From contig NZ_VCHX02000035.1 in assembly GCF_005768555.2 (NCBI RefSeq), positions 1-64,000 of the forward strand: a stretch of 64,000 bases of DNA, given 5' to 3'. The position numbers were made by a program, and so were the translations under genes. The DNA is from Streptomyces sporangiiformans (GTDB taxonomy: Bacteria > Actinomycetota > Actinomycetes > Streptomycetales > Streptomycetaceae). The notes beneath the pieces were generated by a model that saw nothing but the letters and a program-made list of their open reading frames with translations, was not told where the DNA came from and ran no database searches. Shown one piece after another: positions 35,454 to 59,632 of this stretch (positions within the stretch are counted from its first letter, which is position 1; the number at the start of each line of letters is the position of its first letter).

Positions 35454-37186
35454 GAGGGCAGGACCCACACCGGGTTCGAGTAGAACCACAGGTCGTTCCA
35501 CGGGTCCGCGTCGCCGACGACGTCGATGGCCGGGCCGGACGGGTCGACCGCCGCGCCCATGAGGCCCGTCGCGGAGCGGTTGCCGTCCGTGCCGCGCAGG
35601 CGGACGTACAGCGGACGATCGACCGGACCGAGGGAGTACGTGAGGCGGACCCTGCCGGTGGACTTGCCGACCTCGTACGACTTCGCCACCTTCGCCGTGG
35701 GCGCGGTGAAGGTGTCCTTGTCCGCGACCGTGCCCGTGACGTCGCCCCGGATGACGTCGACCCGGGCCAGCTGCGGCACGAAGCCGGCCCAGTTGGGGGC
35801 GCCCGCGAGGGCGACCTCGACCGTCAGGGTCACCTTCGTGCCCTTCTTGACGTGCAGCGCGCCCCCGAGTGTGGCCCACCGGCCGCCGCCCGAGACACGG
35901 ACGTCGAGGCCGCTGATGAGCTGACCGTGGTCGACCCAGACACGGCCGGCGCGGATGCCGTCCATGACGGCGGCGTAGGTGAAGCCGTCGGCGCCGACAT
36001 GGGTGCGGCTGTACTGGCCGGGCCAGTAGTCACCCTCGGTGAGATCGATCTTGCCGCTGTAAACGGGGTCCGTGTGCTTGCCGTTGGCCAGGTAGTCGCT
36101 GTCCGGGCCGCCGCGCTTCGCGGTGTCCGTGTAGACGTTGTGGGAGTCGGAGTTGGCGGTGATCCACCAGGGCTTCCCCTCGGCCAGGAGGCTGTCCCAC
36201 AGGCCGCCGACGGTGGCGGTCATCCAGTCGAAGCCGCCCCAGGTGCGGTAGCTCTCCAGGGGGTACGCGGCGAAGGAGTTGGCGCCGGGGCTGCCGTCGT
36301 ACAGACCACGGGCGCGGCCCATGCCTACGGACTTCTCGATGCCGGCGGCCTGGTGGCCGGGCGCGCCCTCCATGCCGACCGCGATCTGGCGGCCCGAGCC
36401 CGTGGCGTCGCGCCAGGCCCGGATCTCGTGCGGCGAGTCGATGCCCTTGCGCGCGGGGTGGTTGGCGAGCATCAGGATGTCCTTGACCTTGCGTCGCTGG
36501 ACCTGCTCCGCAAGGAAGTTGAGACCCGCGATGGCGAGGGCCTCGTTGGCGGGCGTCGAGTCCGTGGCCTTCTTCACGCCGCCGTCGTACGAGGTCTCGA
36601 ACTCCTTGAGGACGGCGACCTCGTTCTTGCCGGGGTGGACGAAGACCGTGCCGTGCTCGGCGGCCGGGATGTTCCACTCCAGGCCCTGGAAGACAAGCGT
36701 GTCCTCGTACGCCGCCCGAGCCTCTTTGATGTCCGGATTGACCTTCTCCACGCCGATCTTCGCGTGCGTCTCGTTGCCGTGGTCGGTGATGACCATCCAG
36801 TCGAGGCCGTGCCGGGCCCCCTGGCGGACCTGGTCGGAGACGCGGTACTTGCCGTCGTTGCTGTACTGCGTGTGGATGTGGTGGTCGCCGGCCAGCCACA
36901 GGAAGCCACCGTTCCTCCGGCGGCCTTCGGAGGCGTACGCGGGGGTCGTGGCCCCTTGTGCGAGAACGCTCCCGGCCGTCAGGCCGGCGCCGAGCAGACC
37001 GGCCCGCCGCAACATGGAGCGGCGTGAGTGCTGGTCAGGGGTCAGGGCCTCGTCGGGCACGGAGGTGTCGAAGGCGGCGGGGAGATCGGTGGCCTCGTGG
37101 TCGGAATGATGGTGGGGATGCCCATGCACGTGCCCATGTCCATGCCCGTGCGCCTGCCCGTGTCCGTGTCCGTGTCCGTGTCCCAT
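35450..37186 (-). CDS. Tat-exported PHP-domain phosphoesterase with histidine-rich N-terminus
   Basis: A 578-residue exported protein. Residues 1-31 hold 14 histidines, mostly as HG repeats, placed before the Tat signal (RRSMLRRAGLLGAG, near 55-68, ending at TTPAYA). The PHP metal-binding motifs follow: DHHIHTQYS, ITDHGNE, GLEWN, ANHPAR and NSDSHN, giving a trinuclear metal site for phosphoester hydrolysis. A beta-rich C-terminal domain occupies about 440-578. Because the His tract precedes the export signal, it should stay at the cytoplasmic face or be removed with the signal, so it may load metal before export. Confidence 0.8.
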   Translation of the reverse strand: MGHGHGHGHGQAHGHGHGHVHGHPHHHSDHEATDLPAAFDTSVPDEALTPDQHSRRSMLRRAGLLGAGLTAGSVLAQGATTPAYASEGRRRNGGFLWLAGDHHIHTQYSNDGKYRVSDQVRQGARHGLDWMVITDHGNETHAKIGVEKVNPDIKEARAAYEDTLVFQGLEWNIPAAEHGTVFVHPGKNEVAVLKEFETSYDGGVKKATDSTPANEALAIAGLNFLAEQVQRRKVKDILMLANHPARKGIDSPHEIRAWRDATGSGRQIAVGMEGAPGHQAAGIEKSVGMGRARGLYDGSPGANSFAAYPLESYRTWGGFDWMTATVGGLWDSLLAEGKPWWITANSDSHNVYTDTAKRGGPDSDYLANGKHTDPVYSGKIDLTEGDYWPGQYSRTHVGADGFTYAAVMDGIRAGRVWVDHGQLISGLDVRVSGGGRWATLGGALHVKKGTKVTLTVEVALAGAPNWAGFVPQLARVDVIRGDVTGTVADKDTFTAPTAKVAKSYEVGKSTGRVRLTYSLGPVDRPLYVRLRGTDGNRSATGLMGAAVDPSGPAIDVVGDADPWNDLWFYSNPVWVLPS

Positions 37187-37409
37187 GTCGGCCTCCTCAG
37201 TCCCGCGGCGCGGCTGCTGCCGCGTGAGGAGACTCCGCGCGAAACATGAACATCGCTCAACAACAGGGTGATCACCGGGCGACCCGGACGCGGCACCTCG
37301 TCCCTGCCCTCACTGTTTCCCCAACTGCTCTTGTACGCCACACTGGTTGACCTCGAACCTGAGCACCGTTCACCTTCCCCCGTTTCCTCCGACTGGAGAC
37401 GCCCCCACC

Positions 37410-38771
37410 ATGAGAAAACTCGTCGGCACCCTCGTGGCAGGCGCGCTGGCCGCGGCCGGACTCGCCACCGCCGCCACGACCACCACCGCCGCCACGGCCA
37501 CCGCCACGGCTGCGGCACCCGCGGCAGCCGCCGCCCCCTCCTCGGGCACCTTCAACGTCCTGACGTACAACGTCGCGGGCCTCCCGGAGGGGCTGAGCTC
37601 CGGCAATCCGAAGACCAACACCCCGCTGATCTCCCCGCGTCTCGCGCCGTACGACATCGTCAATGTGCAGGAGGACTTCAACTACCACGCGGCGCTGTAC
37701 GCGGGCGACAACCACCCGTACCGCACCGCGACCAGCGGCGGGGTCCCCTTCGGCGACGGGCTCAACACCCTCTCGGACCACTCGTTCGAGGACTTCGAGC
37801 GGGTGAAGTGGAAGAACTGCACCGGCACCAACTGCCTCACCCCGAAGGGCTTCTCACAGGCCCGGGTCCGGCTCGCCGAGGGCGTCTTCGTGGACCTCTA
37901 CAACGTGCACACGAACGCGGACTCGACGGATGACGCGCTCGCGGCCCGCCGCGCCAACATCGAGCAGCTCTCGGACTTCATCCAGGCGAACTCGGCCGGC
38001 AACGCGGTGATCGTCATGGGCGACACCAACACCCGCTACACGCGCACGGGCGACAACATCCGCACGCTGGTCAACGAGAACGGCCTGACCGACCCATGGG
38101 TCAAGCTGGTCCGCGGGGGCAGCGCGCCGGCCCAGGGCAGCGACGCACTCGTCTGCTCCGAGACGGCCCCGACGAACGACTGCGAGGTGGTGGACAAGGT
38201 CCTCTACCGCGGCAGCAACCTGGTGAACCTCACCGCGACCCGCTACAACAACGAGTGGGCGAAATTCCTGGACTCGAAGGGCGGCAATCTCTCCGACCAC
38301 TTCCCGCACACGGTCGACTTCTCCTGGTCCCTGCCCGCAAAGCTCCGCGCAAGCGACTTCTTCGGCGGCCCGCACGGCACGGCCTTCAACGACGCGGACA
38401 ACCTCCCGTCCACGCCCGCGCCCCGCACGCTCACGCTGCGCGGCGACTCCCGCCTGGACGCGGTGTCCCTGACGCACGACACCGGTACGCCCCTGACGCA
38501 CGGCGGTACGGGCGGCACGGCCAAGTCCCTCACCCTCGCTTCCGGCGAACACCTCACCTCGGTGAAGCTCACACGCGGCCAGAAGGACGGCCGGACCCGG
38601 ATCTTCTCGGCGTCCTTCACCACCGACAAGTCCCGCACCCTGACGGCCGGTTCGGCCACCTCGGACACCGTGACGTACACGGCCCCGTCCGGCTGGCAGA
38701 TCGTCGGCTTCACGGGCCGCTCGGGCGCCGAGGTCGACAAGCTGGGAGTGCTGTACGCACCGATCGACTGA
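37410..38771 (+). CDS. Secreted sphingomyelinase C-like phosphodiesterase
   Basis: A 453-residue secreted enzyme with a Sec signal at 1-35 (unusually Thr/Ala-rich), then an endonuclease/exonuclease/phosphatase domain: FNVLTYNVAG, metal Glu in VQEDF, DLYNVHTNAD, VIVMGDTN and the terminal LSDHFP. About 310 onward is a beta-prism-like C-terminal domain resembling jacalin lectins (SGWQIVGFTGRSGAEVDKLGVLY). Bacterial relatives cleave sphingomyelin or related phospholipids. The ATG at 37410 is preferred over a TTG 21 codons upstream because it gives a clean signal peptide after GGAG. Confidence 0.82.
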   Translation: MRKLVGTLVAGALAAAGLATAATTTTAATATATAAAPAAAAAPSSGTFNVLTYNVAGLPEGLSSGNPKTNTPLISPRLAPYDIVNVQEDFNYHAALYAGDNHPYRTATSGGVPFGDGLNTLSDHSFEDFERVKWKNCTGTNCLTPKGFSQARVRLAEGVFVDLYNVHTNADSTDDALAARRANIEQLSDFIQANSAGNAVIVMGDTNTRYTRTGDNIRTLVNENGLTDPWVKLVRGGSAPAQGSDALVCSETAPTNDCEVVDKVLYRGSNLVNLTATRYNNEWAKFLDSKGGNLSDHFPHTVDFSWSLPAKLRASDFFGGPHGTAFNDADNLPSTPAPRTLTLRGDSRLDAVSLTHDTGTPLTHGGTGGTAKSLTLASGEHLTSVKLTRGQKDGRTRIFSASFTTDKSRTLTAGSATSDTVTYTAPSGWQIVGFTGRSGAEVDKLGVLYAPID

Positions 38772-40893: not shown

Positions 40894-41478
40894 ATGGCCC
40901 GAGCAGGGCTCACAGCCGCCCGCGTGGTCGAGGCCGCCGCCGATCTCGCCGACGACGTCGGGTTCGAGAACGTCACGGTCTCCGCACTGGCACGGCAGTT
41001 CGGGGTGAAGGACGCGAGCCTGTACTCGCACGTCAAGAACGTGCAGGACCTGCGAACCCGGGTCGCGCTGCTGGCGGGCGGCGAGATGATCGACCGGATC
41101 GGGGTCGCCGTGGCCGGCCGGGCCGGAAAGGACGCACTCGTCGCGTTCGCCAACGCCTACCGGGCGTACGCGCTGGAGCGGCCCGGGCGGTACGCGGCCA
41201 CGCAGATCCGGATCGACCCGGCCGTCGTCGCCGAGTCGAGCGTGTTCCGGCGGACCGCCGAGGTGACGTACGGAATGCTGCGCGGCTACGGGCTGTCGGA
41301 ACCCGATCTCACGGACGCCGTACGCCTGTTGCGCAGCACCTTCCACGGCTACTGCGGCCTGGAGGCCAGTGGCGGATTCGGCGCCCCCCGCGGCGTACAG
41401 ACGTCCTGGGAGAGGGCCCTCGACGCCCTGCACGTGCTTCTGGAGCACTGGCCCAGGGACGAGACGAAGGCTGCCTGA
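40894..41478 (+). CDS. TetR-family regulator with WHG (TetR_C_33-like) domain
   Basis: A 194-residue regulator. The N-terminal helix-turn-helix (ALARQFGVKDASLYSHVKN, about residues 32-50) is followed by a ligand domain with the family's FHGYCGLEASGGF segment near the end. The start ATG follows GGAGGAGACACCCC. It may control itself and the methyltransferase gene upstream. Confidence 0.85.
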   Translation: MARAGLTAARVVEAAADLADDVGFENVTVSALARQFGVKDASLYSHVKNVQDLRTRVALLAGGEMIDRIGVAVAGRAGKDALVAFANAYRAYALERPGRYAATQIRIDPAVVAESSVFRRTAEVTYGMLRGYGLSEPDLTDAVRLLRSTFHGYCGLEASGGFGAPRGVQTSWERALDALHVLLEHWPRDETKAA

Positions 41479-41513
41479 CCGGCCGAGCCGGCGGCAGCGC
41501 CTTCGGGAAGCCC

Positions 41514-41579
41514 GCGGAACACGCCGCGGACAACCTGCGGAAAACCGGCGGAAAGCCTGCGGAAAACCTCACGGAGAGA
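41514..41579. repeat. Five to six 11-bp direct repeats upstream of the toroid gene
   Basis: GCGGA starts recur at 41514, 41526, 41537, 41548 and 41559, with a degenerate copy near 41571. Most are spaced 11 bp, with unit GCGGAAAACCn. On the opposite strand the unit reads GGTTTTCCGCa. Eleven-base direct-repeat units are the format recognised by PhoP- and AfsR-type response regulators in Streptomyces, but the core differs from the PHO consensus GTTCACC. The block ends about 95 bases before the TTG start of the next gene. Confidence 0.55.
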
Positions 41580-41674
41580 CTGCTTCCGGTCGCCACCCCA
41601 GGCGTCCCGCTGACCACTTAGACTGGAAGCTTCGCCAACACCCACGTGTGCCGCCCTGGGGGAGGGAGCGCGCC

Positions 41675-43066
41675 TTGTCTCAACAGCAGCTGGGACGCGG
41701 TCCGTTGAGAACGGATGCGGATTCCGAGCCACCCCCGCCCAGCGGCCCTCGGCCCGCGCGGTTCGTACGGTGGCTGGGCGGCTTCGGCTGCGCGGCCGCC
41801 GGTTACGCCGTGTTCCAGTCACTGGTCGGAGTGCTGCCGGACAGCATCGAGGGTGAGTCCGCGCGGTATGCGATCGCCGCGGTGAGCGGCCTCGGCACGG
41901 CCCTCGCCGCCTGGCTGGCGGCGGCGCTGGTGCGGTCCCGGTCCGGGGAGAACACCCCGGTGGGCACGGGCCGGGTGGTCGCCGCCGCCCCGCCGCTGTC
42001 GGGGCCCGGCCCGTTCCCCGAGCTGTTCTCGGCGACGTACGCCGCCCTCGCCGAGCACGTCTCCGTGGTCGACGACCCGGACGCCGGGCGGCTCACGGGC
42101 TGGCCGCACTCCCTGGGCGAGAGCGCGCAGAGCAGGCCGACGCCGGTCGGCACGGCGTACGGGCTGCACAGCACGCTCGACCTCGGCGTCCCCGACGGCC
42201 GGCTGAGCACCGGCGACCTGGTCGAGACCCTGTGGCGGCTGCGTCTGCCGGACGGCGGCTGGTCGGCGCGCTCCCAGGGGACCGTGGCCCGCCCGGAGGT
42301 GACCGCGCTGGTCCTCGGCGCGCTGGCCCGGGCCGGGGCGGACCCGGCGCGGCTGGCCTCGGAGGTGTCGCACTGCGCGTCCGGCTTCACCCTGGAACTC
42401 GACCCTACGGGGCGGGAGCTGACGCATGTCGTGACGACCGTGCTGCGGGGGCTGCTGCGCGCCGCGCCCCATGCGGACGTGCTGCCGCTCTTGAGGGACT
42501 CACTCGTCGACGGAGCGATCACCGACCCGCGCCGTCAGCACCGGCGCTGCTGGGGCTACCGGCTGGCGCCCGTCCACGGCCAGCCGTCCCCGCTGCACAC
42601 CGCCTTGGCCGTGCTCGCCCTGGACCGGGCGGCCCGAGTCCTGGGCGAGAGCGGCAACGCGCGCGCGGCCCGTGAGGACGGCATCCGCTGGCTCCTCGCC
42701 TGCCCGGACGCCCCGCACCACTCCTGCCTCGACCTGTCCAACCTCCGCGAGGAGGTGCGCCGACCGCGCCCCGACGACCCCTCACGCCACGAGGTCCTGA
42801 ACGTACGGCACTTCACCGCCTCCTGGGTCGTCCGCGCTCTGCTCACCCCCGGCGCCCGCGACATAGCGCGCGAGGACGGCCTGGAGGAGGAGTGGCGGGA
42901 GCAGGTGAACGGCGCGGCCACCGCCGTATGGGCGGCGCAGACGGACGGCGTCTGGACCTGGGTCCGCGACGACACCGGAGAGCTGCGGCGCCCCATGTGG
43001 ATGACCTATCAAGGTCTTTCGGCGCTGCGGGCCCATGCCGTATGGATGTACCAACCGCCCGGCTGA
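41675..43066 (+). CDS. Membrane-anchored alpha/alpha-toroid (prenyltransferase/squalene-cyclase-like) protein
   Basis: A 463-residue protein starting at TTG with GGAGGGAG six bases before it. Two membrane helices occupy about 33-52 and 62-88. From about 165 it has alpha/alpha-toroid repeats as in terpenoid cyclases and prenyltransferase beta subunits (RLPDGGWSARSQGTVARPEV, later YQGLSALRAHAV). I see no DxDD acid motif of squalene cyclases or zinc site of protein prenyltransferases, so catalysis is doubtful. It is followed after 71 bases by a cupin gene with the same ribosome site GGAGGGAGCG, suggesting a functional pair. The function is unknown. Confidence 0.65.
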   Translation: MSQQQLGRGPLRTDADSEPPPPSGPRPARFVRWLGGFGCAAAGYAVFQSLVGVLPDSIEGESARYAIAAVSGLGTALAAWLAAALVRSRSGENTPVGTGRVVAAAPPLSGPGPFPELFSATYAALAEHVSVVDDPDAGRLTGWPHSLGESAQSRPTPVGTAYGLHSTLDLGVPDGRLSTGDLVETLWRLRLPDGGWSARSQGTVARPEVTALVLGALARAGADPARLASEVSHCASGFTLELDPTGRELTHVVTTVLRGLLRAAPHADVLPLLRDSLVDGAITDPRRQHRRCWGYRLAPVHGQPSPLHTALAVLALDRAARVLGESGNARAAREDGIRWLLACPDAPHHSCLDLSNLREEVRRPRPDDPSRHEVLNVRHFTASWVVRALLTPGARDIAREDGLEEEWREQVNGAATAVWAAQTDGVWTWVRDDTGELRRPMWMTYQGLSALRAHAVWMYQPPG

Positions 43067-43137
43067 GGCGGGCAGATGCGTCAGCGGCATCGCTGGGGCG
43101 GGGACACCAGCCGCAGGGCTGAGTGGAGGGAGCGTGC

Positions 43138-43860
43138 ATGGGTGGTCGGCAGGTCCAGGCGGCGCGGCGTCTGCTGGCCGGGGCACTGGACGGCGAACTG
43201 CCCGAGCACGAGCGGGTGTTGGCGGCCCGTGCGGTCGTCGCCGAACTGGGCTCCCCGGACCGGCTGTTGGAGCTGGCCGCAGAGCTCGCCTCCGGTGAGG
43301 GCGACCCGGAGGGGTGCGCCCGGCTCTCGTACCGCCATGTCCTCGGCTTCGACAAGCTGCTGCTCATCGACGGCGGACCGCACCACATGCTGCGTGCCCA
43401 CCTGTGGCACCCCGAGCGCGGCGCTGTGGGCAAGGAGGACATTCACAACCACCGGTCCCCACTTGCCTCTTATGTCGTACGCGGGCGCCTGACGATGGAG
43501 TTGTACGCGCCCCTGCGCGACGGCGGAATCGAGGCGGACCGCTACCAGGAGTCCCTGTCCCACCAGGCCGCCGACTGGCTTCTGGAGCCCGCGGGCCCGG
43601 CCCGGCTGCACCTGACGCAGGTGGCGGAGTACACGGCGGGCAGCACGTACGCCCTTCCCGCCGACACCCTGCACCGCGCGTGGAGCGACACGACGGAGCC
43701 GACGGTGACGCTCTTCCTGGAGACCGGCAGCGGACGGCGGCGGCACACCGATGTGTTCACGGCGGCAGGACCGCATCCGGGTGCGGTGTCGAAGGTGCCG
43801 CTGGAGGTGGCGGAGTATCTGGGCGAACTCGACGCGTTGGCGGAGCTGCTCCGGAGCTGA
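43138..43860 (+). CDS. Cupin-fold protein paired with the toroid gene
   Basis: A 240-residue cytoplasmic protein with a helical N-terminal 60 residues and a cupin barrel. Candidate metal ligands are the two histidines of DIHNHRSPLASYVVRG and the histidine of PADTLHRAW; the usual cupin glutamate in motif 1 is absent. This resembles thiol-dioxygenase-like cupins in layout, but I would not name an activity. The ATG at 43138 sits six bases after GGAGGGAG. It is convergent with the Nudix gene 23 bases away. Confidence 0.65.
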   Translation: MGGRQVQAARRLLAGALDGELPEHERVLAARAVVAELGSPDRLLELAAELASGEGDPEGCARLSYRHVLGFDKLLLIDGGPHHMLRAHLWHPERGAVGKEDIHNHRSPLASYVVRGRLTMELYAPLRDGGIEADRYQESLSHQAADWLLEPAGPARLHLTQVAEYTAGSTYALPADTLHRAWSDTTEPTVTLFLETGSGRRRHTDVFTAAGPHPGAVSKVPLEVAEYLGELDALAELLRS

Positions 43861-43883: not shown

Positions 43884-44306
43884 TCAGGAGTTCGTGAGCG
43901 CCTGCCGCACGATGTCCAGGTTGTACTCGTCGATCTCGACGCTGCTCAGCTCGGCCGGCGTCAGCCAGGCATACGCCTGGTCGGGCTCGGGCAGGGTGAT
44001 GTGCAGGGAGAGGGCCTTGACCAGGAAGTTGTCCTGCCAGTTCTTGACCTCGTGGCCCCGGTACTCGCTCACGAACGACGATTCGCCGACCTTGCGGACG
44101 ACCTCGCCGAGGAGTCCGGTCTCTTCCTTCAGCTCCCGCAGCACCCCGTCCCGGGGACTCTCCCCCGGCTCCAGCTTCCCGCAGGGCACGCCCCAGACCC
44201 GGGGCAGGAACCGCTCTGTCTCGCTGCGACGCACCAGCAGCACACGCCCTTGGTGCATCACGACGGCGGCGGCCAGTCGCTTGTCGCCGGGGATGTCCAT
44301 GTCCAT
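43884..44306 (-). CDS. Nudix hydrolase (MutT-like)
   Basis: A 140-residue enzyme with a complete Nudix box from GKLEPGE through LRELKEETGL, preceded by WGVPCGK. Relatives clean up 8-oxo-dGTP, other nucleoside triphosphates or NDP-sugars. It is convergent with the cupin gene and 165 bases downstream of the next minus-strand gene, so it probably has its own promoter. Confidence 0.85.
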   Translation of the reverse strand: MDMDIPGDKRLAAAVVMHQGRVLLVRRSETERFLPRVWGVPCGKLEPGESPRDGVLRELKEETGLLGEVVRKVGESSFVSEYRGHEVKNWQDNFLVKALSLHITLPEPDQAYAWLTPAELSSVEIDEYNLDIVRQALTNS

Positions 44307-50228: not shown

Positions 50229-50273
50229 CCGGCCATGGCCGGAAATCGCTCTGGATACTCCGCAATTCGGAGT
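50229..50273. promoter_or_regulatory. Two palindromes before the isoprenyl-synthase-like gene
   Basis: CCGGCCATGGCCGG (50229-50242) is a perfect 14-bp palindrome. ACTCCG (50257-50262) and CGGAGT (50268-50273) form a perfect inverted repeat with the 5-nt spacer CAATT. They lie 75 and 44 bases before the GTG. I take the second as a regulator site; the first could be a hairpin. Confidence 0.5.
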
Positions 50274-50316
50274 GATCAAATCGTTACACGCACATCCCGG
50301 CACAAAGGAGACAAGG

Positions 50317-51309
50317 GTGAATTCCACCTCCTACCTGGACCTGTACGAACGGTTCTCCGTCGACATCGAGACGGAGATCGAAGGCGGCATCGAGCGACTC
50401 GGCCCCTCGCACGACGCGGTCAAGAACGCGATGGCCGAACTCTTGCGGCATCAGAAGTTCAAGTACCCCCTGCAAGTACTGCCGCTCCTGGTGCACGCCA
50501 TCGAGACGGGCAACCCCGAACCCGCCGTCCCTTTGTCCGCGGTACATGTGCTGTGGTGGACTTCCGCGTGTTATCTCGACGACCTGGCGGACGGGCAGGG
50601 TGCCGGGACTTCCCGTGAAATCGGCGAGAACGAGGCGCTGCTCGCCGCCGTCATCAGCGGGAACGCACTTCCCCTTCACATCATTCAGTCACAACGGGTT
50701 CCCGAGTCCGTGCACAACGCTCTGACGGCCGAGCTCGCGAAATGCTGGATCGTCGGCACCGAAGGGCAGTTGAGCGACTTGCGGGGCGATGCCCGCGGCG
50801 CCACGCGGGACTCGGTGGTCACGACCTACCGCGGAAAGTCCGGCGCACCCTTCGGCATGATAACGGCGATGGGTGCGATATTGGCCGACGCGGAGAGCGA
50901 ACGAATAGAGCTGTGGCGGGAGTTCGGCTATGTCTTCGGCGTCCTGTGGCAGATGTTCAACGATCAGGAAGACATCCTTTCCGGCCGCAACGAGGATCTG
51001 CGGAACGGCACAGTAACGTTTCTCCTCGCATGCGCCCTCGAGCATGCATCCATGCGCTCGTCCACGCACTCCAGCGAGGAACTCCTGGACCTGCACTCCG
51101 CCTCGAGGAGCTGTGAACAGGCACGATCGGAACTCGCGACAGCACTTCTCGCGCCTTCCGTGCTGCACCGGTTCCAGGAGGACCTGGACAGGTTTCGCGA
51201 GGACGCTCTGCGGATTCTGAGCAAACTGGGGGGCGACGAGGACTACCTGCCGGTGCTGCGCCGCCTGGTGGAGGAGTCCGCCTCGCTGCTCCTCCACCGG
51301 GCGGAGTGA
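50317..51309 (+). CDS. Isoprenyl-diphosphate-synthase-like protein (possible terpene synthase)
   Basis: A 330-residue all-helical protein of the polyprenyl-synthetase superfamily. The first metal motif is DDLAD in SACYLDDLADG and the second is FNDQEDI, where ordinary chain-elongating synthases have DDxxD. It keeps a recognisable DLRNGTVT in the place of the usual G-K-x-x-G-x-D-L region. Diverged members of this fold include terpene synthases and peptide prenyltransferases such as ComQ, so the product cannot be called. The GTG follows AAAGGAG by six bases. Codon use is softer (ATA, TTG, TTT, GAT, GCA) than in its neighbours, hinting at transfer. Confidence 0.68.
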   Translation: MNSTSYLDLYERFSVDIETEIEGGIERLGPSHDAVKNAMAELLRHQKFKYPLQVLPLLVHAIETGNPEPAVPLSAVHVLWWTSACYLDDLADGQGAGTSREIGENEALLAAVISGNALPLHIIQSQRVPESVHNALTAELAKCWIVGTEGQLSDLRGDARGATRDSVVTTYRGKSGAPFGMITAMGAILADAESERIELWREFGYVFGVLWQMFNDQEDILSGRNEDLRNGTVTFLLACALEHASMRSSTHSSEELLDLHSASRSCEQARSELATALLAPSVLHRFQEDLDRFREDALRILSKLGGDEDYLPVLRRLVEESASLLLHRAE

Positions 51310-58909: not shown

Positions 58910-59632
58910 ATCCGGCCGACTTGGGCGGTTGGTTGGTGGGTGGGTCGGGGTCGTGTGCCGGTGCGTCCGCGGGGTGCCTCCGGCGGTTGGGCGGGGGCGC
59001 CTGCGGTGGGTGGTCGGGTCGGGGCCGTGTGCCGGTGCGTCCGCCCGTCGCCGCGGGGGCGTACGGCCCGGTGTTGGTACAGCGTGCGGGTTTCCTGAGA
59101 CAAGCCCTACGCGACGGGCGTTGACGCACCGGCACACGACCCCTCCCGCGCGTAGGCAACCGCGGCTGGGTGCCCCGATCCCGCCCCTCCCGCCGGTGGC
59201 CCACTGCGGCTGGGTGCCCCGATCCCGCCCCTCCCGCCGGTGGCCCACTGCGGCTGGGTGCGCCGATCCCGCTCCTCCCGCGCGTGGGCGACTGCGTGCG
59301 CGCTCCTTCCCACCCACCCTCCGGGAGCGCCCCTTCAGGGGCGCGGGGAACTGCGCGACCAGCCACAGCCGCCCCGCAGCCAAAGTACGAGCCGAACCGG
59401 AGGGCCTGGGGGCGCAGCCCCCAGCCAGGGGCGCGAGGAACTGCGCGACCAGCCACAACCGACCCGCAGCCGAAGTACGAAGCCCACCCACCCCACCCGA
59501 CTGAGTGCAACCGCAGGTATGGGGGGCCTGGGGGCGCAGCCCCCTGTTTCGGGAAGGGGTGGGGTTGGGGAAGGGAACCCACCCCAGAAAAACCCGAGCG
59601 GAGCGCGCCGTTGCGCTGCTACCGTCTGCGAC
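58910..59632. repeat. Repeat-rich non-coding stretch
   Basis: About 720 bases with no convincing gene. A 21-bp element at 58947-58967 recurs with one change at 59021-59041 and perfectly inverted at 59123-59143. A 44-bp unit (GCGGCTGGGTGCCCCG...) is repeated at 59162, 59206 and, diverged, 59250. A further ~55-bp element (AGGGGCGCGGGGAACTGCGC...) appears at 59337-59391 and 59427-59481; it is a familiar interspersed sequence in Streptomyces intergenic DNA. GCCTGGGGGCGCAGCCCCC occurs at 59404-59422 and 59526-59544 and can fold as hairpins. Open frames across it are low-complexity. Confidence 0.75.

Follow-up and report, generated by a model that had tools for sequence, protein, structure and literature searches.

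The DNA analysed here is a stretch of 64,000 nucleotides from Streptomyces sporangiiformans (contig NZ_VCHX02000035.1, positions 1 to 64,000 of the forward strand; hereafter the window), whose genome measures 10.4 Mb, and it carries a gene for a putative membrane-anchored alpha/alpha-toroid protein followed by a gene for a cupin. Comparison across streptomycetes shows that this toroid-cupin pair is a unit and that a convergent NUDIX hydrolase gene is the third member of the module. Two orphan genes are thereby placed in a defined module of three components, whose active site is predicted and which can be put to the test. The component folds are known; the combination and the cupin family appear to be undescribed, and no description of a toroid-cupin-NUDIX combination was found by title or abstract in the literature searched, which scarcely covered subscription journals and preprints. 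The cassette is carried by a minority of streptomycetes, and in the window it is composed of the following features.

41661..41670, plus strand: ribosome-binding-site sequence of the toroid gene, GGAGGGAGCG (sequence)
41675..43066, plus strand: toroid gene, TTG start, 463 aa, membrane-anchored alpha/alpha-toroid (open reading frame, structure prediction)
41789..41941, plus strand: region coding for the predicted transmembrane hairpin of the toroid, helices at residues 39-53 and 61-89 (AF2 secondary structure, hydropathy)
43125..43134, plus strand: ribosome-binding-site sequence of the cupin gene, GGAGGGAGCG (sequence)
43138..43860, plus strand: cupin gene, ATG start, 240 aa, thiol-dioxygenase fold (open reading frame, predicted structure)
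43444-43446, 43450-43452 and 43672-43674, plus strand: codons of the presumed cupin metal ligands H103, H105 and H179
43884..44306, minus strand: NUDIX hydrolase gene, convergent, third component (Pfam NUDIX, 3.7e-20)
44115-44180, minus strand: NUDIX box

Linkage of the toroid, cupin and NUDIX genes

Two sets of loci were compared. The genome sample comprised 392 Streptomyces genomes, from which all 60 toroid loci and one cupin-only locus were examined (61 loci); the named-locus sample comprised the best 80 of 89 loci from a cupin scan, which took two short peptide patterns as query and thereby favours close relatives, and all 80 of these lie in Streptomyces. The two sets share many species, and counts from both are not independent. 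The toroid was matched in 60 of the 392 genomes, and toroid and cupin stand at one locus in 58 of these 60, the other two (L134 and L135) holding toroid fragments only. Both genes lie on the same strand in 58/58 loci and are less than 300 nt apart in 53/58, the five wider spacings being found in four loci with an EEP-family gene and in L097 (2.2 kb). Among the named loci the toroid is present in 77/80 and lies within 300 nt of the cupin in 75 of those 77; two of the loci without it (L223 and L230) begin close to the end of a contig, the third (L219) carries an orphan truncated cupin, and in L224 and L247 the toroid is fragmented. The adjacency of the pair that had been proposed in a preliminary description, made from the window alone, thus extends across genomes, and its observation that in the window the two genes share one orientation and are preceded by the same ribosome site is confirmed. 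Gene clustering over the 61 loci shows that the neighbouring genes vary between clades, and the linkage of toroid and cupin is therefore not merely one of shared surroundings. In L097 and in L210 (Streptomyces zinciresistens K42), about 2.2 kb between toroid and cupin represents an apparent insertion.

The preliminary description had left open what else travels with the pair and did not mention the NUDIX gene, which follows the cupin convergently in 54 of the 58 toroid-cupin loci and lies within 100 nt of it in 42 of 55 loci measured (one of them without a toroid). These adjacency counts include overlapping stops; with a non-overlapping gap only, the figures are 42/58 and 57/77, and the gene-cluster count of 46/61 is an undercount. 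Three of the four loci without NUDIX (L130, L131 and L132) have an EEP gene between toroid and cupin, and in the fourth, L111, the contig breaks off within the cupin gene; L128 carries both EEP and NUDIX. The 77 named toroid loci have NUDIX in 75 cases, EEP in one (L242, S. diastatochromogenes) and neither in one (L172). When 150 genomes were searched, NUDIX orthologues were found in 23, that is, in 22/24 genomes with a toroid and in 1/126 without (G022, which has an orphan cupin), with a clear gap between orthologues (E <=2.5e-49) and the next best match (3e-14), and the two toroid genomes that have no orthologue, G033 and G093, are of the EEP type. Since its orthologues are nearly confined to toroid genomes, the NUDIX gene is no general genome resident, and because it adjoins the pair in convergent orientation it would be missed by an operon-based annotation.

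The box G-x5-E-x7-R-E-U-x-E-E-x-G is present in the window NUDIX protein and is kept in 129/133 orthologues (overlapping sets), and the motifs QEV, GDFN/ADLN and FSDH, which we take to be the catalytic EEP motifs, occur in 4/4 EEPs, so that the catalytic motifs of both enzymes look intact at the sequence level. All three genes are under purifying selection, with dN/dS values against six relatives of 0.24-0.31 (toroid), 0.15-0.20 (cupin) and 0.11-0.25 (NUDIX). In a midpoint-rooted cupin tree, from which L139, L150 and L294 were left out, L128 with its EEP and NUDIX branches first in the pair clade (support of 0.93 for the rest), which is consistent with an ancestor that had all four genes (toroid, EEP, cupin and NUDIX) and with different losses thereafter. 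As a separate observation, L130, L131 and L132 have toroids with 34-36% identity to that of the window and cupins with 58-65%, while the corresponding values are 51-53% and 46-51% in L122-L127; this mismatch points to either a mosaic structure of the operon or rapid evolution of the toroid.

Predicted folds, wider cupin family and proposed function

In the window cupin, the motif H103-N-H105 is followed by RSPLAS, and the motif-1 glutamate is absent, as the preliminary description had seen; Ala110 stands in 139/139 cupins (overlapping sets). Thiol dioxygenases use a three-histidine iron site, and a three-histidine cupin of thiol-dioxygenase type would explain the missing glutamate. H103, H105 and H179 are present in 50/50 family members, H88 in 49/50 and H67 in 48/50. 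The structural model (predicted local distance difference test, pLDDT, 88.6) has thiol dioxygenases as its best Foldseek matches (E ~4e-8), and VIA-align places mercaptosuccinate dioxygenase at the top (Z 14.6, root-mean-square deviation 3.8, 171 residues aligned), followed by CDO-type enzymes of Bacillus, Pseudomonas and mammals (Z ~12-14, the top CDO-type rows covering 152-175 residues), ergothioneine dioxygenase (up to Z 11.5) and PCO/ADO (Z 9.7-10.7). From fold and conservation the protein is predicted to be a cupin with a presumed Fe(II) three-histidine site. Neither a Pfam model at gathering level nor an NCBIfam model at its cut-off nor a PDB sequence matches it, and no Pfam model fell below E 0.005 for the cupin part in 19 members scanned; because sequence profiles fail to reach the known families, it is filed as thiol-dioxygenase-like and not as a member.

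Cupins often act as sensors, and the protein could instead be a regulator that binds a ligand and controls the membrane toroid, with the thiol-dioxygenase fold retained but without catalysis. The tightness of the pair and the predicted membrane location of the toroid would suit such a role; the presence of all three ligand histidines in every member compared and the near-constancy of H88 suggest instead that the metal chemistry is retained, and we consider a purely regulatory cupin quite unlikely.

The toroid protein has hydrophobic stretches at residues 36-54 and 67-85 (hydropathy, threshold 1.4), and its model (pLDDT 83.6) begins with an N-terminus of low confidence, followed by two hydrophobic helices and, over residues 106-463, an (alpha/alpha)6 barrel, in agreement with the two-helix membrane toroid first described. 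Flanking positive charges suggest that the barrel would lie on the cytoplasmic side. The best fold matches of the model are cellobiose 2-epimerases (Z 24.7), and it aligns with class II terpene/squalene-hopene cyclases (MstE, drimenyl diphosphate synthase) at Z 20.5-22.0 and 15-20% identity; the Foldseek scores are weak (best E 2.5e-4). The toroid likewise went unmatched by Pfam at gathering level, by NCBIfam at cut-off and by PDB sequences, in keeping with the preliminary statement that neither gene matches a familiar system, and a profile search of PDB sequences returned chance matches only. That statement had been accompanied by another, that the toroid has no obvious catalytic acids, which holds in part: no DxDD string was found in the window toroid, and 3/35 orthologues have one somewhere in the sequence, but an alignment of 35 toroids keeps E208, D284, D353 and E359, as well as GGW at 194-196, without exception. 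One candidate family was tried and rejected. The SCO2321 family membrane protein (NF053823) gives a weak local match to toroid residues 183-232 (E 3.3e-4), with 19.7 bits against a cut-off of 300, and it scores above its cut-off in 143/150 Streptomyces genomes, against 60/392 for the toroid; in the literature searched, the one paper listed with the SCO2321 locus tag (PMC9237094) concerns an unrelated peptide.

Distant cupins with ~23-36% identity are found in further loci of streptomycetes and actinobacteria (L136-L155, L280-L295) and on two Erwiniaceae plasmids, and no cupin match was found in phage records. They were recovered from at least 5/346 genomes in a phylum-wide profile search (at most eight candidates scored per genome) and from at least 32/119 genomes in an order-level search (up to 23 candidates scored per genome). 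Many of them adjoin other phosphohydrolases, nucleotide kinases or membrane-helix proteins. One such example is the compact operon of L281-L286 and L288, where a membrane protein of ~320-350 aa, the cupin and an inositol-monophosphatase-like gene overlapping the cupin gene follow one another (Pfam on L281); the membrane protein has two hydrophobic helices over threshold in five of these loci and one in two, and in L281 it received no Pfam name at cut-off. In L155 a two-helix protein and the cupin are accompanied by an HD gene (HD 1.5e-6), and in L137 a two-helix protein stands with a cupin-HD fusion whose HD part stays under the Pfam cut-off. A metallophosphoesterase lies beside the cupin in L291 and a convergent NUDIX in L295; the L151 cupin is surrounded by NDK, CYTH (below cut-off) and NUDIX genes, L290 has NDK, and L289 has a thymidylate-kinase-like gene and HAD. 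A His-phosphatase stands beside the cupin of L139, and an EEP gene lies near the cupins of L145, L148 and L149 (Pfam) and of L146 (by similarity to L145). On the plasmids L298 (Erwiniaceae bacterium PD-1) and L299 (Pantoea alfalfae), the distant cupin heads a mostly unannotated run of genes, including a histidine phosphatase and a dNK-like gene, which is possibly an undescribed nucleoside-type pathway.

Taken together with the fold predictions, this company leads us to propose, with somewhat less than even confidence, that toroid, cupin and NUDIX work as an oxidation/phosphohydrolysis module that is tethered to the membrane and has as its substrate a phosphorylated metabolite, perhaps one linked to a nucleotide. 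In this scheme, the two-helix membrane protein with its cytoplasmic (alpha/alpha)6 toroid would serve as membrane tether and as binding chamber for a substrate or lipid partner, and the cupin, with its thiol-dioxygenase fold and presumed three-histidine Fe(II) site, would oxidise, perhaps at sulfur, a small metabolite that is phosphorylated or linked to a nucleotide and that would sit in a basic pocket formed by H67, K73, R86, H88 and R106. NUDIX, or the EEP-family enzyme that replaces or joins it in a few loci, would cleave a phosphoester or phosphoanhydride bond in either the substrate or the product. The phosphohydrolases and nucleotide kinases found nearby, together with the conserved basic residues, suggest the nature of the substrate. 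The Streptomyces cassette may further be one branch of a widespread and so far undescribed modular class, in which a membrane-hairpin protein (with a toroid or another cytosolic domain) and a five-histidine thiol-dioxygenase-fold cupin are combined with an exchangeable phosphohydrolase (NUDIX, EEP, IMPase, HD or metallophosphoesterase) for O2 chemistry on a phosphorylated or nucleotide-like molecule at the membrane; this generalisation is offered tentatively, as less likely than not. The cupin family would then form a link between oxygen chemistry and enzymes acting on nucleotides and phosphate in Streptomyces, in a few other actinobacteria and on two enterobacterial plasmids.

Several observations weigh against the proposal and its extension. 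The substrate, metal and activity of the cassette are proposed from fold, conservation and gene context, and the basic pocket from residue conservation, with K73 in 37/50, R86 in 33/50 and R106 in 39/50 cupins and thus not universal. The Foldseek TM-scores of the cupin are modest (~0.4-0.55 on the query), the sigma-1 receptor, a cupin fold of unrelated function, reaches Z 10.0 against it, the CDO_I profile gave at best a non-significant E of 0.059 in 1/19 members scanned, and a profile search of PDB sequences with the cupin returned chance matches only. The co-occurrence of toroid and NUDIX (Fisher p 5e-23, 150 genomes) follows in part from their physical linkage. Among the distant loci, the L139 cupin is interrupted, the dNK-like match on the two plasmids is below the Pfam cut-off, and no phosphohydrolase was found, by the seeds used, in the next three genes of L138, L140, L143, L144, L147 and L293. 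Phosphohydrolases make up 16/70 adjacent genes against 3/213 farther genes around distant cupins, a difference that is not relied on since its p-value is inflated by seeds that came from those same loci.

Two other explanations of the cassette remain live rivals. The first is that of a small specialised-metabolite module, in which the toroid would be active as a terpenoid-cyclase-like or sugar-epimerase-like enzyme. This would accord with the fold alignments of the toroid, with L136, where an SQHop-type toroid (SQHop_cyclase_C 7.8e-22) with C-terminal hydrophobic helices lies next to a distant cupin, and with the natural-product-like clusters, judged by eye, in which the cupins of L141, L142, L145, L146, L148 and L149 are found. 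SbzM, a Streptomyces cupin that oxidises the sulfur of cysteine in SB-203208 biosynthesis (PMC6331615), offers a possible parallel. However, the window toroid and most of its orthologues lack DxDD, the toroid fold serves many functions and, NUDIX aside, no neighbour recurs across clades, the transporter-like clusters C16 and C18 (by eye) occurring in 9/61 loci each; we regard such a module as unlikely, if worth keeping in view. The second is stress or conflict signalling, for instance against phages, in which the membrane toroid or the cupin would sense and NUDIX or EEP would act as effector, destroying nucleotides or nucleic acid. The patchy presence of the cassette, the exchange of NUDIX for EEP, the membrane-helix partners with differing cytosolic domains and the decay to fragments in L134 and L135 would all be in keeping with such a system, but PADLOC gave 0 matches for toroid, cupin and EEP and only the general NUDIX profile PDC-S07 in a scan of nine proteins, the NUDIX gene runs convergently and lies outside the operon, the metal-ligand histidines are retained throughout the family, and no recurrent neighbour appears defence-like, as judged by eye without a defence-library scan. 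A signalling or defence role is accordingly rated improbable. The oxidation/phosphohydrolysis module thus stays the preferred reading.

The region upstream of the pair

The features that precede the toroid gene in the window are as follows.

40894..41478, plus strand: TetR-family regulator gene (TetR_N, TetR_C_33; Pfam)
41504..41583, no strand assigned: 11-bp tandem array (Tandem Repeats Finder)
41568..41621, plus strand: alpha/beta-hydrolase relic, last 18 codons (17 + TAG stop) (blastn; frame by eye)
41613..41635, plus strand: conserved upstream block ACCACTTAGACTGGAAGCTTCGC, candidate promoter or regulator site (upstream comparison)

The tetR gene is a frequent but not constant upstream neighbour (31/58 toroid-cupin loci and 42/77 named loci). 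Between it and the toroid gene, Tandem Repeats Finder reports a period of 11 with 5 copies at 41514-41569 (score 68) and an overlapping period-23 row at 41504-41583 (score 79). Self-match at lag 11 is 33/44 positions, a value that 0/2,000 Markov-resampled sequences reach (mean 18.8, maximum 28), and the 11-bp periodicity, as first described, is statistically real. The preliminary description had likened its pitch to that of sites used by PhoP/AfsR-type regulators. In a comparison of 126 toroid-gene upstream regions including that of the window, drawn from the two overlapping locus sets, the array was not found in any of the 125 others, the closest orthologues included, and the next-best lag-11 score, 24, lies inside the resampled range. 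The unit motif CCNGCGGA has four copies in the window leader and two, scattered, in each of two other leaders (L081 and L178). A three-unit array pattern (<=2 mismatches) found no second place in the strain's own genome, where the reversed pattern, used as a control, gave 4 matches, so that chance matches do exist at this tolerance. Of the two observations that had been named beforehand as speaking against the initial picture, absence of the repeats upstream of orthologues is thus what was found, and independent occurrence of the two genes is not.

An origin of the array is suggested by the loci that have a longer intergenic region. The tetR-toroid gap measures 837-884 bp in 12 loci (overlapping sets), and in the six inspected (L168, L181, L190, L202, L204 and L222) it is filled by an alpha/beta-hydrolase-like frame, identified in L168 as Abhydrolase_6 (Pfam, 7.3e-11) and ending there in ...PTT-TAG. 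The window intergenic region matches that of L168 at 88% over 107 bp, toroid leader included (blastn), and the array lies between the tetR stop and the hydrolase relic, overlapping the edge of the latter. From these alignments, the window appears to have lost the alpha/beta-hydrolase gene, which is retained in a minority of the loci. The array, private to this strain among those examined, is very likely the scar of this lost gene. Because it is absent from the 125 other upstreams, unique in its genome and abuts the relic, the array probably plays no regulatory part and is no operator. That it should be an operator through which a PhoP/AfsR-type regulator controls the pair has the real 11-bp period in its favour; a repeat present in 1/126 upstreams is, however, neither kept upstream of orthologues nor regulon-wide, and it adjoins the relic upstream of the block that is conserved, and this role is scarcely credible. 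A false regulatory lead is thereby removed. The block ACCACTTAGACTGGAAGCTTCGC and the ribosome site are kept in many toroid upstreams, divergent clades differing in sequence there; no E. coli-type sigma-70 match was found in 41613-41635. Unlike the array, the candidate control block ACCACTTAGACTGG should affect expression.

Elsewhere in the window, a gene at 37347-38771, 3 kb upstream of the cassette, encodes an enzyme of the EEP family (Exo_endo_phos2, 2.3e-16) whose C-terminal part is a Jacalin-like lectin domain (6.2e-22), and its cluster (C10) recurs in 17/61 loci. A polyprenyl synthetase-like gene (5.5e-9) lies at 50272-51309, and the 22 gene clusters found most often around the cassette do not include it. 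Of all tandem arrays in the window, a 44-bp repeat at 59140-59296 (3.6 copies) scores highest (230), and a 12-bp/6-bp tandem array at 37119-37189 lies at the start of an open reading frame rich in Gly-His repeats.

Relation to known systems

With the terpenoid cyclase/protein prenyltransferase toroids and the AGE/cellobiose epimerases, the window toroid has its predicted (alpha/alpha)6 barrel in common (residues 106-463, Z 20-24.7), its invariant GGW at 194-196 being a further likeness, and it differs from them in its N-terminal membrane hairpin. Measured against the class II cyclases in particular, it has the barrel and lacks the DxDD string. The cupin compares most closely with the thiol dioxygenases acting on cysteine, 3-mercaptopropionate, mercaptosuccinate and ergothioneine and with ADO/PCO, whose fold, including the N-terminal helices, is shared (VIA Z 9.7-14.6); its model has the CDO-type arrangement of N-terminal helices and strands and, by sequence, the HxH motif and distal histidine without motif-1 glutamate, but falls outside the CDO_I-type Pfam profile. 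The Streptomyces cupin SbzM (PMC6331615), which acts on the sulfur of cysteine, has a gene context unlike that of the window cupin. As opposed to the thiol dioxygenases described above, the window cupin has the extra family-wide histidines H67 and H88 and travels with a membrane protein and a phosphohydrolase.

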